Shown here: piece after piece, positions 52,831-59,376 of the stretch | How positions within the stretch are numbered: position 1 is the first letter of the stretch | Layout of the letters: each line of letters starts with the position of its first letter | Assembly (NCBI RefSeq): GCF_041583195.1 | Contig: NZ_JBFHGL010000003.1 | Span: forward strand, 186,001-250,000 | Direction of reading: 5' to 3' | DNA length: 64,000 nucleotides | Source: Sulfurimonas sp. | GTDB lineage: Bacteria; Campylobacterota; Campylobacteria; Campylobacterales; Sulfurimonadaceae | The notes under the pieces: generated by a model | Database searches by the model: none | What the model saw: the letters and a program-made list of their open reading frames with translations, nothing else | Told to the model about the DNA's origin: nothing | Program-made: the position numbers and the translations under genes

Positions 52831-53781
52831 CTATTTAATTAGTCTTGCTATTTTTCCTTGTATTTTTAACCATAACTTATGATCCATAAACGGAAAGCCT
52901 GCATATGTTTTTCCACTTGTTTTTACTGTTTTAGTTACACCTGTTCTTGCCGCAAACGTATTAAACGGAGCTATCTCTAAATGCCCTGCCACACCTGACT
53001 GTGCACCAAATACATTACTTCTACCAACTTTAGATGAACCCGCAAAACCTGTCTGACTTGCAACAACTGCATTTTCACCTATTTCACAGTTGTGAGCAAC
53101 TTGAATCAGATTATCTAGTCTTGCACCTGCTTTTATTGTTGTTGAACCAAATACAGCCCTGTCAATAGAGTTGTTTGAACCAATCTCAACATTATCACCT
53201 ATCACAACGTTTCCATTATGATAGATCTTGTTATGCTCACCTACCCTATTTGATGCAAAACCAAAACCATCACTTCCTATGACAGTTCCTGCATGAATAA
53301 TACAATCGTTTCCTACTACACACTCTTTATATACTACAACATTTGGATAAAGAATAGTATTGTCACCAATTTTTGCACTTGCACCTACATATGCACCTGC
53401 CATAATCCTACAATTCTTACCTATTACAGCACCATTTGCCACTTCAGCCTTAGCCGATACACTAGTGCCCTCTCCTATTATTGCCTTAGGTAGGTTGTTA
53501 TCTTCAATAGGTGTAGAGAAAAATTTAGAAAGCGTAGCCATATCCCAATAAGGTGATTCTACAACCAAAGCTACACATCCATCAGGTAGTGCATCTTTAT
53601 TTGCTTCATCTATTAAAATAGCGCCTGCATTTGAGTTAGCTACATCTTTAATATACTTAGAATTAGCTACAAAAGATATTTCACTTTCAGTTGCATCTGA
53701 GAGTGTATTCATACCAGTTACTTCAAAACACTCGTCTTCTAATTCAATACCTATATTTGCTACTAACTCTTTTAATGTCAT
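52831..53781 (-). CDS. lpxD: UDP-3-O-acylglucosamine N-acyltransferase
   Basis: 316 residues. The N-terminal uridine-binding domain (SDATESEISFVANSKYI) precedes a long left-handed beta-helix. The catalytic His is in LIQVAHNCEIGENAVVA, and GSDGFGFASNR is a typical segment. It adds the N-linked hydroxyacyl chain of lipid A. It sits 1 bp after ilvH, an unrelated pathway, and this grouping of lpxD with ilvBH is likely just shared transcription. Confidence 0.95.
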   Translation of the reverse strand: MTLKELVANIGIELEDECFEVTGMNTLSDATESEISFVANSKYIKDVANSNAGAILIDEANKDALPDGCVALVVESPYWDMATLSKFFSTPIEDNNLPKAIIGEGTSVSAKAEVANGAVIGKNCRIMAGAYVGASAKIGDNTILYPNVVVYKECVVGNDCIIHAGTVIGSDGFGFASNRVGEHNKIYHNGNVVIGDNVEIGSNNSIDRAVFGSTTIKAGARLDNLIQVAHNCEIGENAVVASQTGFAGSSKVGRSNVFGAQSGVAGHLEIAPFNTFAARTGVTKTVKTSGKTYAGFPFMDHKLWLKIQGKIARLIK

Positions 53782-53782
53782 C

Positions 53783-54262
53783 TTAACGCTCCAGCGCTAC
53801 AGCGCCGCTTCTTACTATCTCTTTAGGATTATATCTTTGTATAATTTTTAAGAAGTTATCTACACGTTTTGGCTCATCGGCAACCATAGCTATAACTACG
53901 TTTTCACCAACATTTACTATTTTACCGTTGTATGCTTCACATAGAGTACTGATATCTGTAATATTTTCAGATACAGGGAACTTAACCATAGCCATCTCTT
54001 TTTCAACTAAATCTACATGCTCATACACTCTATATACAGGTATAAGCTTATGGAGCTGTTTTGTGATCTGCTCAATTACGCGAACTGAACCGTATGTAAC
54101 TATTGTAAGTCTTGAGTATCTACTCTCAGGAATAGGTGCTACAGTTAATGATGTAATATTATACCCGCGTGCAGAGAAAAGATCAGTTATACGAGATAAT
54201 ACACTTGATTCATTAACAACGATTACTGATACTACTCTTCTTTCGTCAATTTCGTGCATCAT
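53783..54262 (-). CDS. ilvH: Acetolactate synthase, small (regulatory) subunit
   Basis: 159 residues. An N-terminal ACT domain (VVNESSVLSRITDLFSARGYNI) that senses valine is followed by the ilvH C-terminal domain. Two Met codons open the gene (54260-54262 and 54257-54259); AAGGAG lies inside the last codons of ilvB and the stop/start junction is TAATG, so the subunits are translated together. Confidence 0.95.
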   Translation of the reverse strand: MMHEIDERRVVSVIVVNESSVLSRITDLFSARGYNITSLTVAPIPESRYSRLTIVTYGSVRVIEQITKQLHKLIPVYRVYEHVDLVEKEMAMVKFPVSENITDISTLCEAYNGKIVNVGENVVIAMVADEPKRVDNFLKIIQRYNPKEIVRSGAVALER

Positions 54263-55959
54263 TATTTATCTCCTTTCTTTTCTAATAACATCATATTAAA
54301 TAAACTACCGCCTGCAGGAACCATTGGAAGAACGTTTTCAAGTCTCTCAACGCTAACTTCTATAAAAGTTACTACATCTTTCTTTATTGCGTCTTTAAGT
54401 GCAGCATCAAACTCTTCTTTAGTTGAAACCCTATAACCTGCCCCACCAAAAGCCTCTGCTAGTTTTACAAAATCAGGCTGGATGCTTAGATCTGTTTCAG
54501 AGTGACGCTTATCATAAAAAAGTGTCTGCCACTGACGAACCATTCCAAGATAATTGTTATTTAAAATAATATTTATAACAGGCAGTTTCTTCTCAACAGC
54601 CGTCATTAACTCTTGAACATTCATTAAAATAGAACCATCACCAGTAAAGTTAATACTAATTTTCTCTGGAGTTGCTGCTTTAACACCCATAGCCGCAGGG
54701 AAACCAAATCCCATAGTACCTAAACCACCAGAACTCATAAACTGGCGAGGTCTGCTAAATGGATAAAACTGAGCTGTCCACATTTGGTGCTGACCAACAT
54801 CTGTTGAGATATTAGCATCATCTCCAAGTAATTCACCAACACGTTCAACTACCCATTGAGGTTTAATTCTTTCACTGTCTTCATGATACATTAATGGATG
54901 AAGCTCATCAAACTTAGCAATAGTATCACGCCATTGAACATATTTTTTAGAATCGATTCTATCACTAAGTTCTAACATATCTTGAACAACGCACTTAACA
55001 TCACCAACAATCGGATAATCTGCATTTACAAGTTTTGAGATAGATGCCGGATCGATATCTACATGTATAACACCTGCATTTTTAGCAAATTCACTAAGTT
55101 TACCAGTTACACGGTCATCAAATCTAGCACCAAGCGCGATAACTAAATCTGTCTCACTCATAGCCATATTAGATGCATATGAACCGTGCATACCAAGCAT
55201 ACCTACTAATAACTCATCATCGTGACTTAGAGTTCCACGAGCCATAAAAGTCTCTACTGCAGGTATACCTGTTTTAGCTACAAGCTCTCTAACATCATAA
55301 GCTGCATTTGAATTAATAACACCACCACCTAAATAAAACAGTGGGCGCTTAGCCTTACTCATAGCTTCTATAGCTTTTTTGATCTGACGAGGATTACCCT
55401 TAGTATGAGGTTTATATGTCTCTAAGTCAAGTTCTACAGTATAATCAAACTCTGCTATCTCAGCAGTTACGTCTTTTGGAATATCAACATGAACAGGACC
55501 TGGACGACCTGAAGCTGCTATATAAAAAGCCTCTTTTAAAATTCTTGGCAGATCTGCTGCACAAGTTACCAGATAGTTATGCTTAGTACATGAGCGGCTG
55601 ATTCCAACTGCATCGATCTCTTGAAATGCGTCTGTACCGATTAGACTCATTGGTACTTGACCCGAGATTACAACCAAAGGGATTGAATCCATATATGCAT
55701 CTGCTAAACCTGTTACTGCGTTTGTAAAACCAGGACCTGATGTAATCATAGCTACACCAACTTTACCGCTTGCTTTAGCGTAACCTTCTGCAGCATGAAC
55801 AGCAGCTTGTTCATGACGAGTTAGTATGTGATGAAACTTATCCTGTTTATAAATTTCATCGTAGACATTCATGATGGCTCCACCAGGGTATCCAAAAACA
55901 GTTTCAACACCCTCTTCAATTAAAGCTTCTATGACCATTTGAGCGCCATTTATTTGCAT
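54262..55959 (-). CDS. ilvB: Acetolactate synthase, large (catalytic) subunit
   Basis: 565 residues. The TPP-activating Glu is in HILTRHEQAAVHAAEGYA, and the TPP motif is NFTGDGSILMNVQEL with NIILNNNYLGMVRQWQ. FAD-region sequences (ALGARFDDRVTGK) are intact. It makes acetolactate or acetohydroxybutyrate, the first common step for Val, Leu and Ile. ilvA lies 2.2 kb upstream on the same strand, separated by the WD40 gene. No leader peptide or attenuator is visible in the 88 bp upstream. Confidence 0.96.
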   Translation of the reverse strand: MQINGAQMVIEALIEEGVETVFGYPGGAIMNVYDEIYKQDKFHHILTRHEQAAVHAAEGYAKASGKVGVAMITSGPGFTNAVTGLADAYMDSIPLVVISGQVPMSLIGTDAFQEIDAVGISRSCTKHNYLVTCAADLPRILKEAFYIAASGRPGPVHVDIPKDVTAEIAEFDYTVELDLETYKPHTKGNPRQIKKAIEAMSKAKRPLFYLGGGVINSNAAYDVRELVAKTGIPAVETFMARGTLSHDDELLVGMLGMHGSYASNMAMSETDLVIALGARFDDRVTGKLSEFAKNAGVIHVDIDPASISKLVNADYPIVGDVKCVVQDMLELSDRIDSKKYVQWRDTIAKFDELHPLMYHEDSERIKPQWVVERVGELLGDDANISTDVGQHQMWTAQFYPFSRPRQFMSSGGLGTMGFGFPAAMGVKAATPEKISINFTGDGSILMNVQELMTAVEKKLPVINIILNNNYLGMVRQWQTLFYDKRHSETDLSIQPDFVKLAEAFGGAGYRVSTKEEFDAALKDAIKKDVVTFIEVSVERLENVLPMVPAGGSLFNMMLLEKKGDK

Positions 55960-56047: not shown

Positions 56048-58168
56048 TTACTCTAAGATATTTTCAACCCTCATTGATGAGCGCCACTGTTTTTTTGAAC
56101 CTTTTCTCAAAGAGTCCATATCCATTAGTTTAGAGTCATATTTTTTACAAAAAAGCTCATAGGTAGATAAGATATAATCATCTGTACCAAAGTGTAAAAT
56201 ATAAGTTTTAAAAGCTTTCTCAAGAACTGTTTTATCTTTATTGGTTTTTATAGCTTTTTCTATCTGAGTTACATAAGCCAATGCATATATATTAGCTATT
56301 GAGACATATTTAGATGATATACTTTTATACTTTTCAAGAATCCCATAAATACCAATTGGATCACCGTTTAAGGCATACTCTTTTGCTACTTCAAAATCAT
56401 CAGACCAAAGTTTGTTATACTTTCTTCCCTCAGGTGTATTTATTAAAGTTTCGGAGTTATCTATAATATTATATATATCATCAAAATTTGATTTTTCAAT
56501 TGCTTGATAAAGCTTATCTCTTGATTCTATATCAAGCTTTATACTTTTAACTTCATCTTTAAAGTCTGGAAAATCTACCAATATATCTAAAAGTTTAACA
56601 GCTTTATGTATCTCATTGTCCTCAATATATTTGTGAAGATTTATATACAGAGTATCTCCAAATGTTATAACTTTGGAATATTCAAGGAACTCTTTTAAAA
56701 ACGGATTAACTCTGACAAGCTCAAATACCATCTTAAAATCTTTTTTAATAATAGAGTTTTTAAACCTTGTATATATATCACTTTTTATAAGCATCTCTTG
56801 AATATGAGCTGTTTTCTCACTTACACCCCTGAATTCTGACAGCAACTCTCTGATCTGCTCTTTAGGTTTAGATTCCAATGCCATTTTTTGAGCATGTAAA
56901 AAAAGCTTTTGCCATTTTAATTCCAGTGCTTTATATATATCTGATTCTTTGTAAAGAGGATGCTGATTAACCAAAGAGTAAGCAAGTGATATTTTCCCTG
57001 ATTTGACCAAAGCTAAAAACTTATCAAACTCGTCAAATTCATTAAATAATTTTTTTATTTTTGAGTTTTTACTTGGGATCTCCGTAAAACTACCAAATAA
57101 GTTTAGTGCTTTTTCTTTTTTAGACCCTTGAAGAAATTTTAAGGCCTTGTCGTATATTTTATTCCATAATTCTTCTATCTTCTTATAGCTGTCAGTATAC
57201 TCAAGTAAAGGATTTTTTTTGATTAATTTATATGCTTTATCGTACTCAGCCAACATTATATGCTTTTGGAGTTTATCTAAACCAGTATATACGTCATAAT
57301 ATAACAACTCCCCAAGATCATCTGCAACTATAAGTAAACCTTGCTCAGCATCATATTCCAGACAAGTTATTCTAGAGTCAACTTTAATAAATTTTCTTGA
57401 AACTTGTTCATAAGAACTTAGATCATAAACAATTACAAAACCAAGCTGTGTTCCTAAAAATAAAAAATGTTCGTTTGATGTAATCTCAACTATTTCATCG
57501 TGAATCCCATCAAGTCTTTTAATGACTTTTTGGGCATTTATATCCCATATAATAACTGATGAATTTTTATCAACACTACATAGGATGTTTTGAGTTAAAA
57601 ACTCTACTTTCATAACCGCTGCAGTATGAGCTTTTAGTGTTGCAATCGGTGTAATAGTTCCGTAGTTAAATATGTGAATTTTTTTATCGTAACTGGCAGT
57701 TGCAACCAAATATGAGTTATTAAAAAATTTTATATCGTTTATTGTATCTGCATGGTGAGGGAGTGTAAAAACAAGCCTTGCACTTTTTGTATCAACGACA
57801 AAACATCTGCCATCTTCCCCTGCTGAAAAGAAGTAGTTCCCTCTAGGATCTACAGCTACACAAGAAACTTCTCCATGGTGTCTGTTTATCTTCTGCTTAA
57901 CTTTTTTAGTAGATGCATCATAAAGTTTAGAACTTCTAACATCTTCACTGACAACAGCAAAATAATCACCACTATTGCTAAAAGAGATCACTTGGTTTTT
58001 ATACCATTTGTGATTTATATTTGCTTTAAATCCGCCAAGTGTCTCTAGGTTTTGCTGATCTAAAAATCTAACAGCTGTAGTTTTGTCCGCAATCAAAATA
58101 GTAGAGTTTTTTTGTTTAACATAAAAAATAATTGGTTCTGAAAATTTTTTACTTTTGACTGCTTTCAT
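56048..58168 (-). CDS. WD40 beta-propeller protein with four ~84-residue helical repeats
   Basis: 706 residues. Residues 1-300 form WD40-like blades; typical pieces are RHHGEVSCVAVDPRGNYFFS (97-116), HHADTINDIKFF, HTAAVMKVEF with SSVIIWDI, and HDEIVEIT. Residues 313-650 show a tandem helical repeat that I aligned by eye: 313-396, 397-481, 482-565 and 566-650. Each begins with a Y/F-x-L/I-[IV] plus NP-type turn (YKLIKKNPLL, YSLVNQHPLY, FELVRVNPFL, YNIIDNSETL), and each has hydrophobic A/L positions about 30, 46 and 70 residues on. No signal peptide or membrane helix is present, so it is probably cytoplasmic. Located between ilvA and ilvB, but nothing links it to that pathway. Function unknown. 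Confidence 0.85.
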   Translation of the reverse strand: MKAVKSKKFSEPIIFYVKQKNSTILIADKTTAVRFLDQQNLETLGGFKANINHKWYKNQVISFSNSGDYFAVVSEDVRSSKLYDASTKKVKQKINRHHGEVSCVAVDPRGNYFFSAGEDGRCFVVDTKSARLVFTLPHHADTINDIKFFNNSYLVATASYDKKIHIFNYGTITPIATLKAHTAAVMKVEFLTQNILCSVDKNSSVIIWDINAQKVIKRLDGIHDEIVEITSNEHFLFLGTQLGFVIVYDLSSYEQVSRKFIKVDSRITCLEYDAEQGLLIVADDLGELLYYDVYTGLDKLQKHIMLAEYDKAYKLIKKNPLLEYTDSYKKIEELWNKIYDKALKFLQGSKKEKALNLFGSFTEIPSKNSKIKKLFNEFDEFDKFLALVKSGKISLAYSLVNQHPLYKESDIYKALELKWQKLFLHAQKMALESKPKEQIRELLSEFRGVSEKTAHIQEMLIKSDIYTRFKNSIIKKDFKMVFELVRVNPFLKEFLEYSKVITFGDTLYINLHKYIEDNEIHKAVKLLDILVDFPDFKDEVKSIKLDIESRDKLYQAIEKSNFDDIYNIIDNSETLINTPEGRKYNKLWSDDFEVAKEYALNGDPIGIYGILEKYKSISSKYVSIANIYALAYVTQIEKAIKTNKDKTVLEKAFKTYILHFGTDDYILSTYELFCKKYDSKLMDMDSLRKGSKKQWRSSMRVENILE

Positions 58169-58173
58169 ATACT

Positions 58174-59376
58174 TTATCTTCTTAAATAGCCCTCTTTTTC
58201 AAGTCTCTCTCTTATCTCATTTTGATGTTCTTCACCTTTTGTCTCCATATGTACTGTAACGTTTGCATCACCATAATCAAGGGAAATAGAAGTTCTGTCA
58301 TAAGATATATGTACAATGTTTGCACTCAACTCTTCAAGTATCTCAGTAAAGCGTTTTAACGAACCAGGCTTATCTACAAGTGTCACCGTAACGTTCATTT
58401 TTCTGTGTGATTTTAATAAACCTTTTTCGATAATTACATTTAAAAGCGTAACATCCAAATTACCGCCGCTTAATACAATGGCTACATTTTTACCTTTTAG
58501 ATGCTTTAACTTTCCGTGTATAGCTGCCGCAACACCTACACTTCCTGCACCTTCCACAACAAGTTTTTGTTTTTCTAGTAAAAATAATATTGCACTAGCT
58601 ATCTCTTCATCATCAACACTTATAAATTCATCAACACTCCCAAGCATATGATCTAAAGTAATTTTTGATGTATCACGAACAGCTATACCATCGGCAATTG
58701 TTCTAACACTTAAGCTGTCTTGCGGTATACCTGTGTCAAATGAGTTCTTAAGCGCAGGAGCACCGCTGGCACCAACTCCAATAACTTTAATATCTTTATT
58801 GATCTGTTTAACTGCAGAGGCTATTCCTGAGATAAGTCCGCCTCCTCCTACTGGAACTACTATGGCGTCTAGTTTTTCACACTTGTCTAAGATCTCTAAA
58901 GCTACAGTCCCCTGACCTGCTATAACTTTTTCATCTTCAAAAGGGTGTATAAAAGTTAGTGAATTTTCTTTTGCAAATCCCATTGCATAAGCATATGCTT
59001 CATCATAATTAGAACCATGTAAAATAACTTCTCCACCAAGATGTTTTACACCATTTACCTTTGTTAGAGGTGTAGATTCAGGCATAACAATAACAGCACG
59101 GATTCCAAATTTTGATGCTGAGAGAGCAACACCTTGAGCATGATTTCCTGCACTCGCAGCTATAACACCGCACTCCATTTGAGATTTGTCTAAAGAAGCT
59201 ATTTTATTATAAGCTCCACGAATTTTAAATGCACCTGTTATTTGAAGGTTTTCTTTTTTTAAATAAACCTCAAGTCCTGAGTATTCACTCATTTGAGGAG
59301 CATAAGAAAAAGGTGTATCTAAAACTATACCCTTTATCGCTTCTTTTGCTTCATATATATTTTTTAAATCTATCAA
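58174..59376 (-). CDS. ilvA: Threonine ammonia-lyase (biosynthetic, with ACT domain)
   Basis: 400 residues, start codon TTG. The PLP lysine is in LQITGAFKIRGAYNK; SAGNHAQGVALSA and VPVGGGGLISGIAS are fold-type II marks. A C-terminal ACT-like domain (KMNVTVTLVDKPGSLKRFTE) spans the last 80 residues. It makes 2-oxobutanoate for isoleucine synthesis, feeding IlvBH encoded nearby. Its ribosome site is weak (AGG about 10 nt upstream). Confidence 0.93.
   Translation of the reverse strand: MIDLKNIYEAKEAIKGIVLDTPFSYAPQMSEYSGLEVYLKKENLQITGAFKIRGAYNKIASLDKSQMECGVIAASAGNHAQGVALSASKFGIRAVIVMPESTPLTKVNGVKHLGGEVILHGSNYDEAYAYAMGFAKENSLTFIHPFEDEKVIAGQGTVALEILDKCEKLDAIVVPVGGGGLISGIASAVKQINKDIKVIGVGASGAPALKNSFDTGIPQDSLSVRTIADGIAVRDTSKITLDHMLGSVDEFISVDDEEIASAILFLLEKQKLVVEGAGSVGVAAAIHGKLKHLKGKNVAIVLSGGNLDVTLLNVIIEKGLLKSHRKMNVTVTLVDKPGSLKRFTEILEELSANIVHISYDRTSISLDYGDANVTVHMETKGEEHQNEIRERLEKEGYLRR

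Follow-up and report, generated by a model that had tools for sequence, protein, structure and literature searches.

A WD40 propeller-solenoid protein family with an 84-residue repeat in Campylobacterota

In this work we describe WDsol, a WD40 protein with a previously unnamed solenoid from Sulfurimonas sp. The WDsol gene is an intact open reading frame on the minus strand (56048-58168) of the window, that is, the whole stretch of 64,000 nucleotides that was analysed, and it encodes 706 amino acids. An original prediction made from the DNA letters had proposed for this protein a beta-propeller followed by four tandem helical units, a protocoatomer-like layout and possibly an identity as a bacterial scaffold built from an undescribed repeat family. 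The scaffold-type layout was recovered in a confident propeller-solenoid model and is conserved across the phylum. The likeness to protocoatomer proteins held only for the order of the domains.

Domain architecture and the repeat of the solenoid

The AlphaFold2 model of WDsol (alignment of 68 sequences; mean pLDDT 90.7, pTM 0.80) consists of two domains, neither of them catalytic. A propeller of 28 strands, arranged as seven blades of four, occupies residues 5-292 and is directly followed by an alpha-solenoid (residues 297-680, with helices from 297 to 677). No transmembrane segment was evident, the maximum 19-residue hydropathy being 1.25. The WD40-like blades that had been placed in residues 1-300 were readily recognized, as WDsol scored 66.5 bits with PF00400 (Pfam gathering cut-off 27) and the whole protein matched WD40 and WD40-type propeller models in Pfam and nothing else. 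The propeller is an ordinary one that aligns over about 285 residues with LIS1 and G-beta. Since propellers filled the Foldseek and VIA-align lists obtained with the whole model, the solenoid was also modelled alone; it proved locally as confident (pLDDT 91.3, pTM 0.62). The gene is divided as follows:

56048..58168, minus strand: WD40 propeller-solenoid protein (WDsol), 706 amino acids; full-length orthologues are 40-67% identical across the genus
57293..58156, minus strand: seven-bladed WD40 beta-propeller, residues 5-292 (Pfam, AlphaFold2 model, VIA-align Z about 31 with the LIS1/PAFAH1B1 and G-beta propellers)
57026..57277, minus strand: solenoid unit 1, residues 298-381 (model and profile self-comparison)
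56771..57025, minus strand: solenoid unit 2, residues 382-466, the most conserved of the four (model and profile self-comparison)
56519..56770, minus strand: solenoid unit 3, residues 467-550 (model and profile self-comparison)
56267..56518, minus strand: solenoid unit 4, residues 551-634 (model and profile self-comparison)
56129..56266, minus strand: C-terminal helical cap, residues 635-680 (predicted structure)
56051..56128, minus strand: conserved C-terminal tail, residues 681-706, a candidate docking motif (orthologue conservation)

Among orthologues the tail has the consensus KLNLExLxKGSLxMWRPSMIVxSILD, and 50% of its columns are at least 80% identical, as compared with 35% in the propeller.

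The four solenoid units start at residues 298, 382, 467 and 551, are 84-85 residues long and open with the equivalent segments DKLQKHIMLAEYDKAYKLIKKNPLL (298), DKFLALVKSGKISLAYSLVNQHPLY (382), TRFKNSIIKKDFKMVFELVRVNPFL (467) and DKLYQAIEKSNFDDIYNIIDNSETL (551). The motif starts noted originally at 313, 397, 482 and 566 (spacing 84/85/84) fall 15 residues into these units. Periodicity was assayed by profile self-alignment of residues 296-706 from 81 family members, with 20 column-shuffled profiles as controls. A shift of 84 gave E 2.5e-33 (score 253.6, 251 columns), and shifts of 169 and 253 gave E 5.5e-22 and E 4.2e-11, respectively, while the best off-diagonal score in the 20 shuffles was 17.8. 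A shift of about 42 was also present, weaker than that of 84 but above the control maximum (score 40.0), indicating that each 84-mer comprises two related helix hairpins. When the single sequence was scored alone over shifts 20-259 (mean score per residue), the best shifts were 253, 169 and 42, with 84 in fourth place. The predicted helices likewise recur every 84-85 residues (309/393/478/562, 326/410/495/579 and 351/436/520/604). Hence the four tandem units of the original prediction are real, and each is a doubled, degenerate TPR-like hairpin of about 42 residues.

The genome of the window encodes a third, shorter copy (G000:C1, L032:4082-5746; 554 amino acids, 38% identical) that ends at the start of unit 4 and lies directly upstream of genes for MoxR, a DUF58-like protein and a TgpA transglutaminase. 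A 552-residue copy with the same end point is present in the sister genome G014 (L033:4412-6070). The short form is either a three-unit paralogue or a shared truncation.

Relation of WDsol to known solenoids and to membrane coats

No family model in Pfam, NCBIfam, PHROG or PADLOC matched the solenoid, and no Pfam TPR_n model matched the solenoids of eight family members at E <= 1, which places them outside TPR membership by this measure. ANAPC3 matches of family solenoids in Pfam were far below the cut-off (E 0.097 and 0.96), and one to the RIC1 C-terminal solenoid (Pfam E 0.002, one orthologue, 32 residues) was judged to be due to chance. A solenoid profile run against PDB sequences retrieved only TPR-type chains, with E 0.002-0.04. 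Foldseek searches with the solenoid found nothing at E <= 0.001 among solved structures in the PDB, the top match being the TPR co-chaperone P58(IPK) (E 0.05, not significant), and nothing at E <= 0.001 among viral structure models. In VIA-align the best value was Z 7.2 (rmsd 14.7) and all Z were below 8; rows at Z 5-7 are the background expected for helical repeats. The WD40 stretch alone matched a HEAT-ARM model of 1972 positions in PADLOC (E 3e-8); as the match is confined to that stretch and the solenoid alone matches no model, WDsol does not count as an anti-phage defence protein by this comparison. A plasmid search with WDsol returned WD40 propellers only, none of which spanned 80% of the query. 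The literature searched contained no account of the family. Together with the significance of the repeat, the confident structure and the conservation throughout the phylum, the lack of a family model in these databases bears out the proposal of an undescribed repeat family.

In its N-terminal domain WDsol is a classical WD40 propeller like those of prokaryotic WD40 proteins (PF00400; e.g. Thermomonospora PkwA), but none of the described bacterial WD40 families that we found has the four-unit solenoid plus tail. The hairpins carry small-residue, A and P positions reminiscent of TPR and TPR-like solenoids such as P58-IPK and kinesin light chain; in contrast to TPR, the 42-residue hairpins of WDsol are paired into 84-residue units.

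The eukaryotic coat and protocoatomer proteins (alpha-/beta'-COP, Sec31, clathrin, IFT, NPC) have the same order of an N-terminal beta-propeller and, directly after it, a C-terminal alpha-solenoid as the AlphaFold2 model of WDsol. The layout has also been reported in bacteria of the PVC superphylum, where membrane-coat-like proteins such as Gemmata gp4978 combine a propeller with stacked alpha-helix pairs, find each other by PSI-BLAST and are reported to descend from one ancestor within PVC (PMC2799638). In that survey of 162 complete and 13 incomplete bacterial proteomes, the domain order was reported from the endomembrane coats of eukaryotes and from PVC bacteria alone (PMC2799638). Judged by the predicted structure of WDsol, this restriction does not hold for Campylobacterota. 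The domain order and the direct propeller-to-solenoid junction match membrane-coat architecture (PMC2799638), and the solenoid Foldseek list includes IFT-A and clathrin chains among its weak last entries (E 0.9-2.2). One could thus imagine subunits that self-assemble on a membrane and shape it, as do COPI, COPII, clathrin and IFT. We consider such a bacterial membrane-coat-like protein highly improbable. The solenoid has no significant fold match to any coat protein, a negative that does not by itself exclude a relationship, and a TPR co-chaperone ranks first; no significant similarity of the WDsol solenoid to eukaryotic coat proteins was found in sequence either. WDsol has about 710 residues, as compared with 1,039-1,287 in the three PVC proteins described in detail (PMC2799638), and its repeat is a regular 84-residue double hairpin. 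Its genes neighbour signalling and housekeeping genes rather than membrane-shaping ones. The protocoatomer-like character of the original prediction therefore stands for the domain order; the propeller is a generic WD40 one, the contexts do not point to membrane trafficking, and a relationship to coats or a coat function is unsupported. Between a membrane coat and a signalling scaffold, the latter is the likelier role of WDsol.

Distribution of the family and the ilvA-ilvB neighbourhood

A protein search gave matches in 53 of 60 related genomes. Besides the orthologues of the genus, these included a second group of full-length paralogues, at 22-25% identity. Whole-genome searches with the solenoid profile, which covered 298 Campylobacterota genomes, found WDsol in 90 of them and in 23 of 58 genera, with one to three copies each. 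Nearly all frames with a solenoid match were 620-805 amino acids long, nearly always a single propeller-solenoid protein of about 700-730 residues, and the solenoid occurred without a propeller only in a few broken or contig-edge copies. Family f11 and others had no WDsol among the sampled genomes, which makes this an accessory family. It is a large one and to date known from this single phylum, the one covered by the solenoid-profile searches. In a profile search of contigs, the matched records were Sulfurimonas-type or other epsilonproteobacterial/Campylobacterales ones, apart from two labelled just 'bacterium'; among those with names are Sulfurimonas indica, S. crateris, S. autotrophica and Sulfuricurvum.

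A tree of 81 members fell into two halves. That of the window's protein comprises clades beside ilvA/ilvB and beside polA as well as one convergent with folE-fliI; the other holds a dprA/divergent polysaccharide deacetylase clade, an ispG/hypA clade and, time and again, members whose gene comes straight after one for a receiver and/or PAS protein. Context labels were strongly clustered on the tree (17 changes, shuffled mean 54). Many members adjoin housekeeping genes (ilvA/ilvB, fliI/recJ, dprA, ispG/hypA, polA) with no obvious common process. The second full-length paralogue in the genome of the window (G000:C5, L031:4023-6140) converges with fliI with abutting ends, a position conserved in the genus. 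As the two genes lie on opposite strands and meet at their 3' ends, fliI was rejected as an operon partner of this clade.

In the window, WDsol is flanked by two conserved neighbours:

58174..59376, minus strand: threonine dehydratase-type PLP enzyme (ilvA), 5 bp upstream of WDsol
54262..55959, minus strand: acetolactate synthase large subunit (ilvB), 88 bp downstream of WDsol

In the members of the genus that were measured, the gap to ilvA on the upstream side is 2-6 bp and that to ilvB on the downstream side about 80-105 bp, and the link to ilvA holds in other families too. This arrangement could reflect a metabolic scaffold that keeps IlvA beside acetolactate synthase (IlvB/IlvH) and thereby hands 2-oxobutanoate from the first step of isoleucine synthesis to the second. 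We regard this as improbable. In G011, a genome of the same genus on one contig and listed as 100% complete, ilvA is followed after 115 bp by ilvB and ilvH with WDsol absent and flanks otherwise of the same kind, and two genomes of the same family (G330 and G237) have ilvA-ppx-ilvB without WDsol. The gene is thus dispensable for the ilv operon, which weakens a role in substrate channelling. Furthermore, WDsol and ilvB are separated by a Ppx/GppA gene in f4 genomes, and paralogues of the same family reside in unrelated operons. Downstream of ilvH, G011 carries two adjacent lpxD-like genes (L253:5457-7367), and the window has one (52831-53781).

Putative receiver/PAS partners and the proposed role of WDsol

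In the sister clade, the WDsol gene follows a gene for a protein with receiver (REC) and/or PAS domains at a spacing of -25 to +18 bp, the frames often overlapping. Members in this setting belong to six families and are spread over the sister half of the tree; the label requires five changes, so the arrangement was either gained early in that half and then lost, or gained several times. The upstream partners have in common a C-terminal tail, about 110-130 residues long, that bears a degenerate PAS signature. PAS_8 matches the tail of the L193 partner (E 3e-7), and most of the tails have no Pfam model of their own. The following REC/PAS proteins carry this PAS-like tail, which was found almost only beside WDsol genes:

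L203:2738-4027
L209:3497-4327
L193:7315-8139
L189:2976-4109
L208:6801-7604
L059:3777-4565

A search of the 298 genomes with the tail gave 19 strong hits (E < 1e-18), 18 of which are the immediate upstream neighbour of a WDsol gene in the same orientation. The remaining one ends 133 bp before a contig end, and another contig of that genome starts with a WDsol match. Because the alignment was built from ten WDsol neighbours, close relatives beside WDsol are expected, and what is telling is the near absence of strong hits from other places. This near-exclusive linkage with overlapping or abutting frames is the strongest functional clue in our data. No tail hit was obtained in the window's own genome, and the signalling link is accordingly not directly transferable to the WDsol copy of the window. 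Several genomes have CetB/CetA-like short PAS and chemoreceptor genes in the vicinity of WDsol or of PAS-tail genes (L256:3027-6066, L033:1360-3265, L207).

WD40 propellers and TPR-like solenoids are interaction modules, and their combination is common among eukaryotic assembly factors and co-chaperones. WDsol could accordingly help to assemble, or act as a chaperone for, some large flagellar or chemosensory complex of the cytoplasm and be expressed from any operon in which it happened to land. The P58(IPK) match, non-significant as it is, the paralogue clade convergent with fliI and the chemoreceptor genes near some WDsol copies would fit such a function, which we nevertheless hold to be unlikely: the fliI neighbour is convergent and not co-transcribed, and the absence of WDsol from f11 and from most sampled genomes argues against a core flagellar factor.

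We give an even chance to our own proposal that WDsol is a soluble cytoplasmic scaffold or adaptor which, in the sister clade, serves PAS sensors as their output partner. The propeller would dock one partner via its conserved faces (blades 3, 4 and 6), and the superhelix, whose four doubled 84-residue units and cap amount to eight to nine TPR-like hairpins, would offer a long groove for a second partner or for WDsol itself. The conserved C-terminal tail would provide a third site of docking. The cognate partner in the sister clade would most likely be the co-expressed REC/PAS sensor, whose dedicated PAS-like tail may bind WDsol, gene adjacency being no proof of binding. Phosphorylation or redox/ligand sensing could then be relayed to the components that WDsol brings together. 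The window's own copy, encoded between ilvA and ilvB, might do the same kind of job with some other partner.

To our knowledge, Campylobacterota are not known for internal membrane compartments. Tentatively, and with more doubt than belief, we suggest that they possess their own, independently evolved propeller-solenoid assembly family outside PVC, a bacterial counterpart of the coat architecture. The family would have diversified into a number of paralogue clades, each with its own synteny, and its members in one half of the tree would be wired to receiver/PAS sensors via a dedicated PAS-like adaptor tail. This would be a new kind of output for a two-component system, since what the response regulator controls would be a scaffold and neither DNA binding nor an enzyme. 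The pair of PAS-like tail and WDsol is a tractable system, as binding is directly assayable. Arguments about how eukaryotes arose have drawn on the propeller-solenoid layout. Its occurrence in a family that spans this phylum and has a repeat and sensory partners of its own suggests that such a layout can evolve independently and that, taken alone, it does not testify to coat ancestry.
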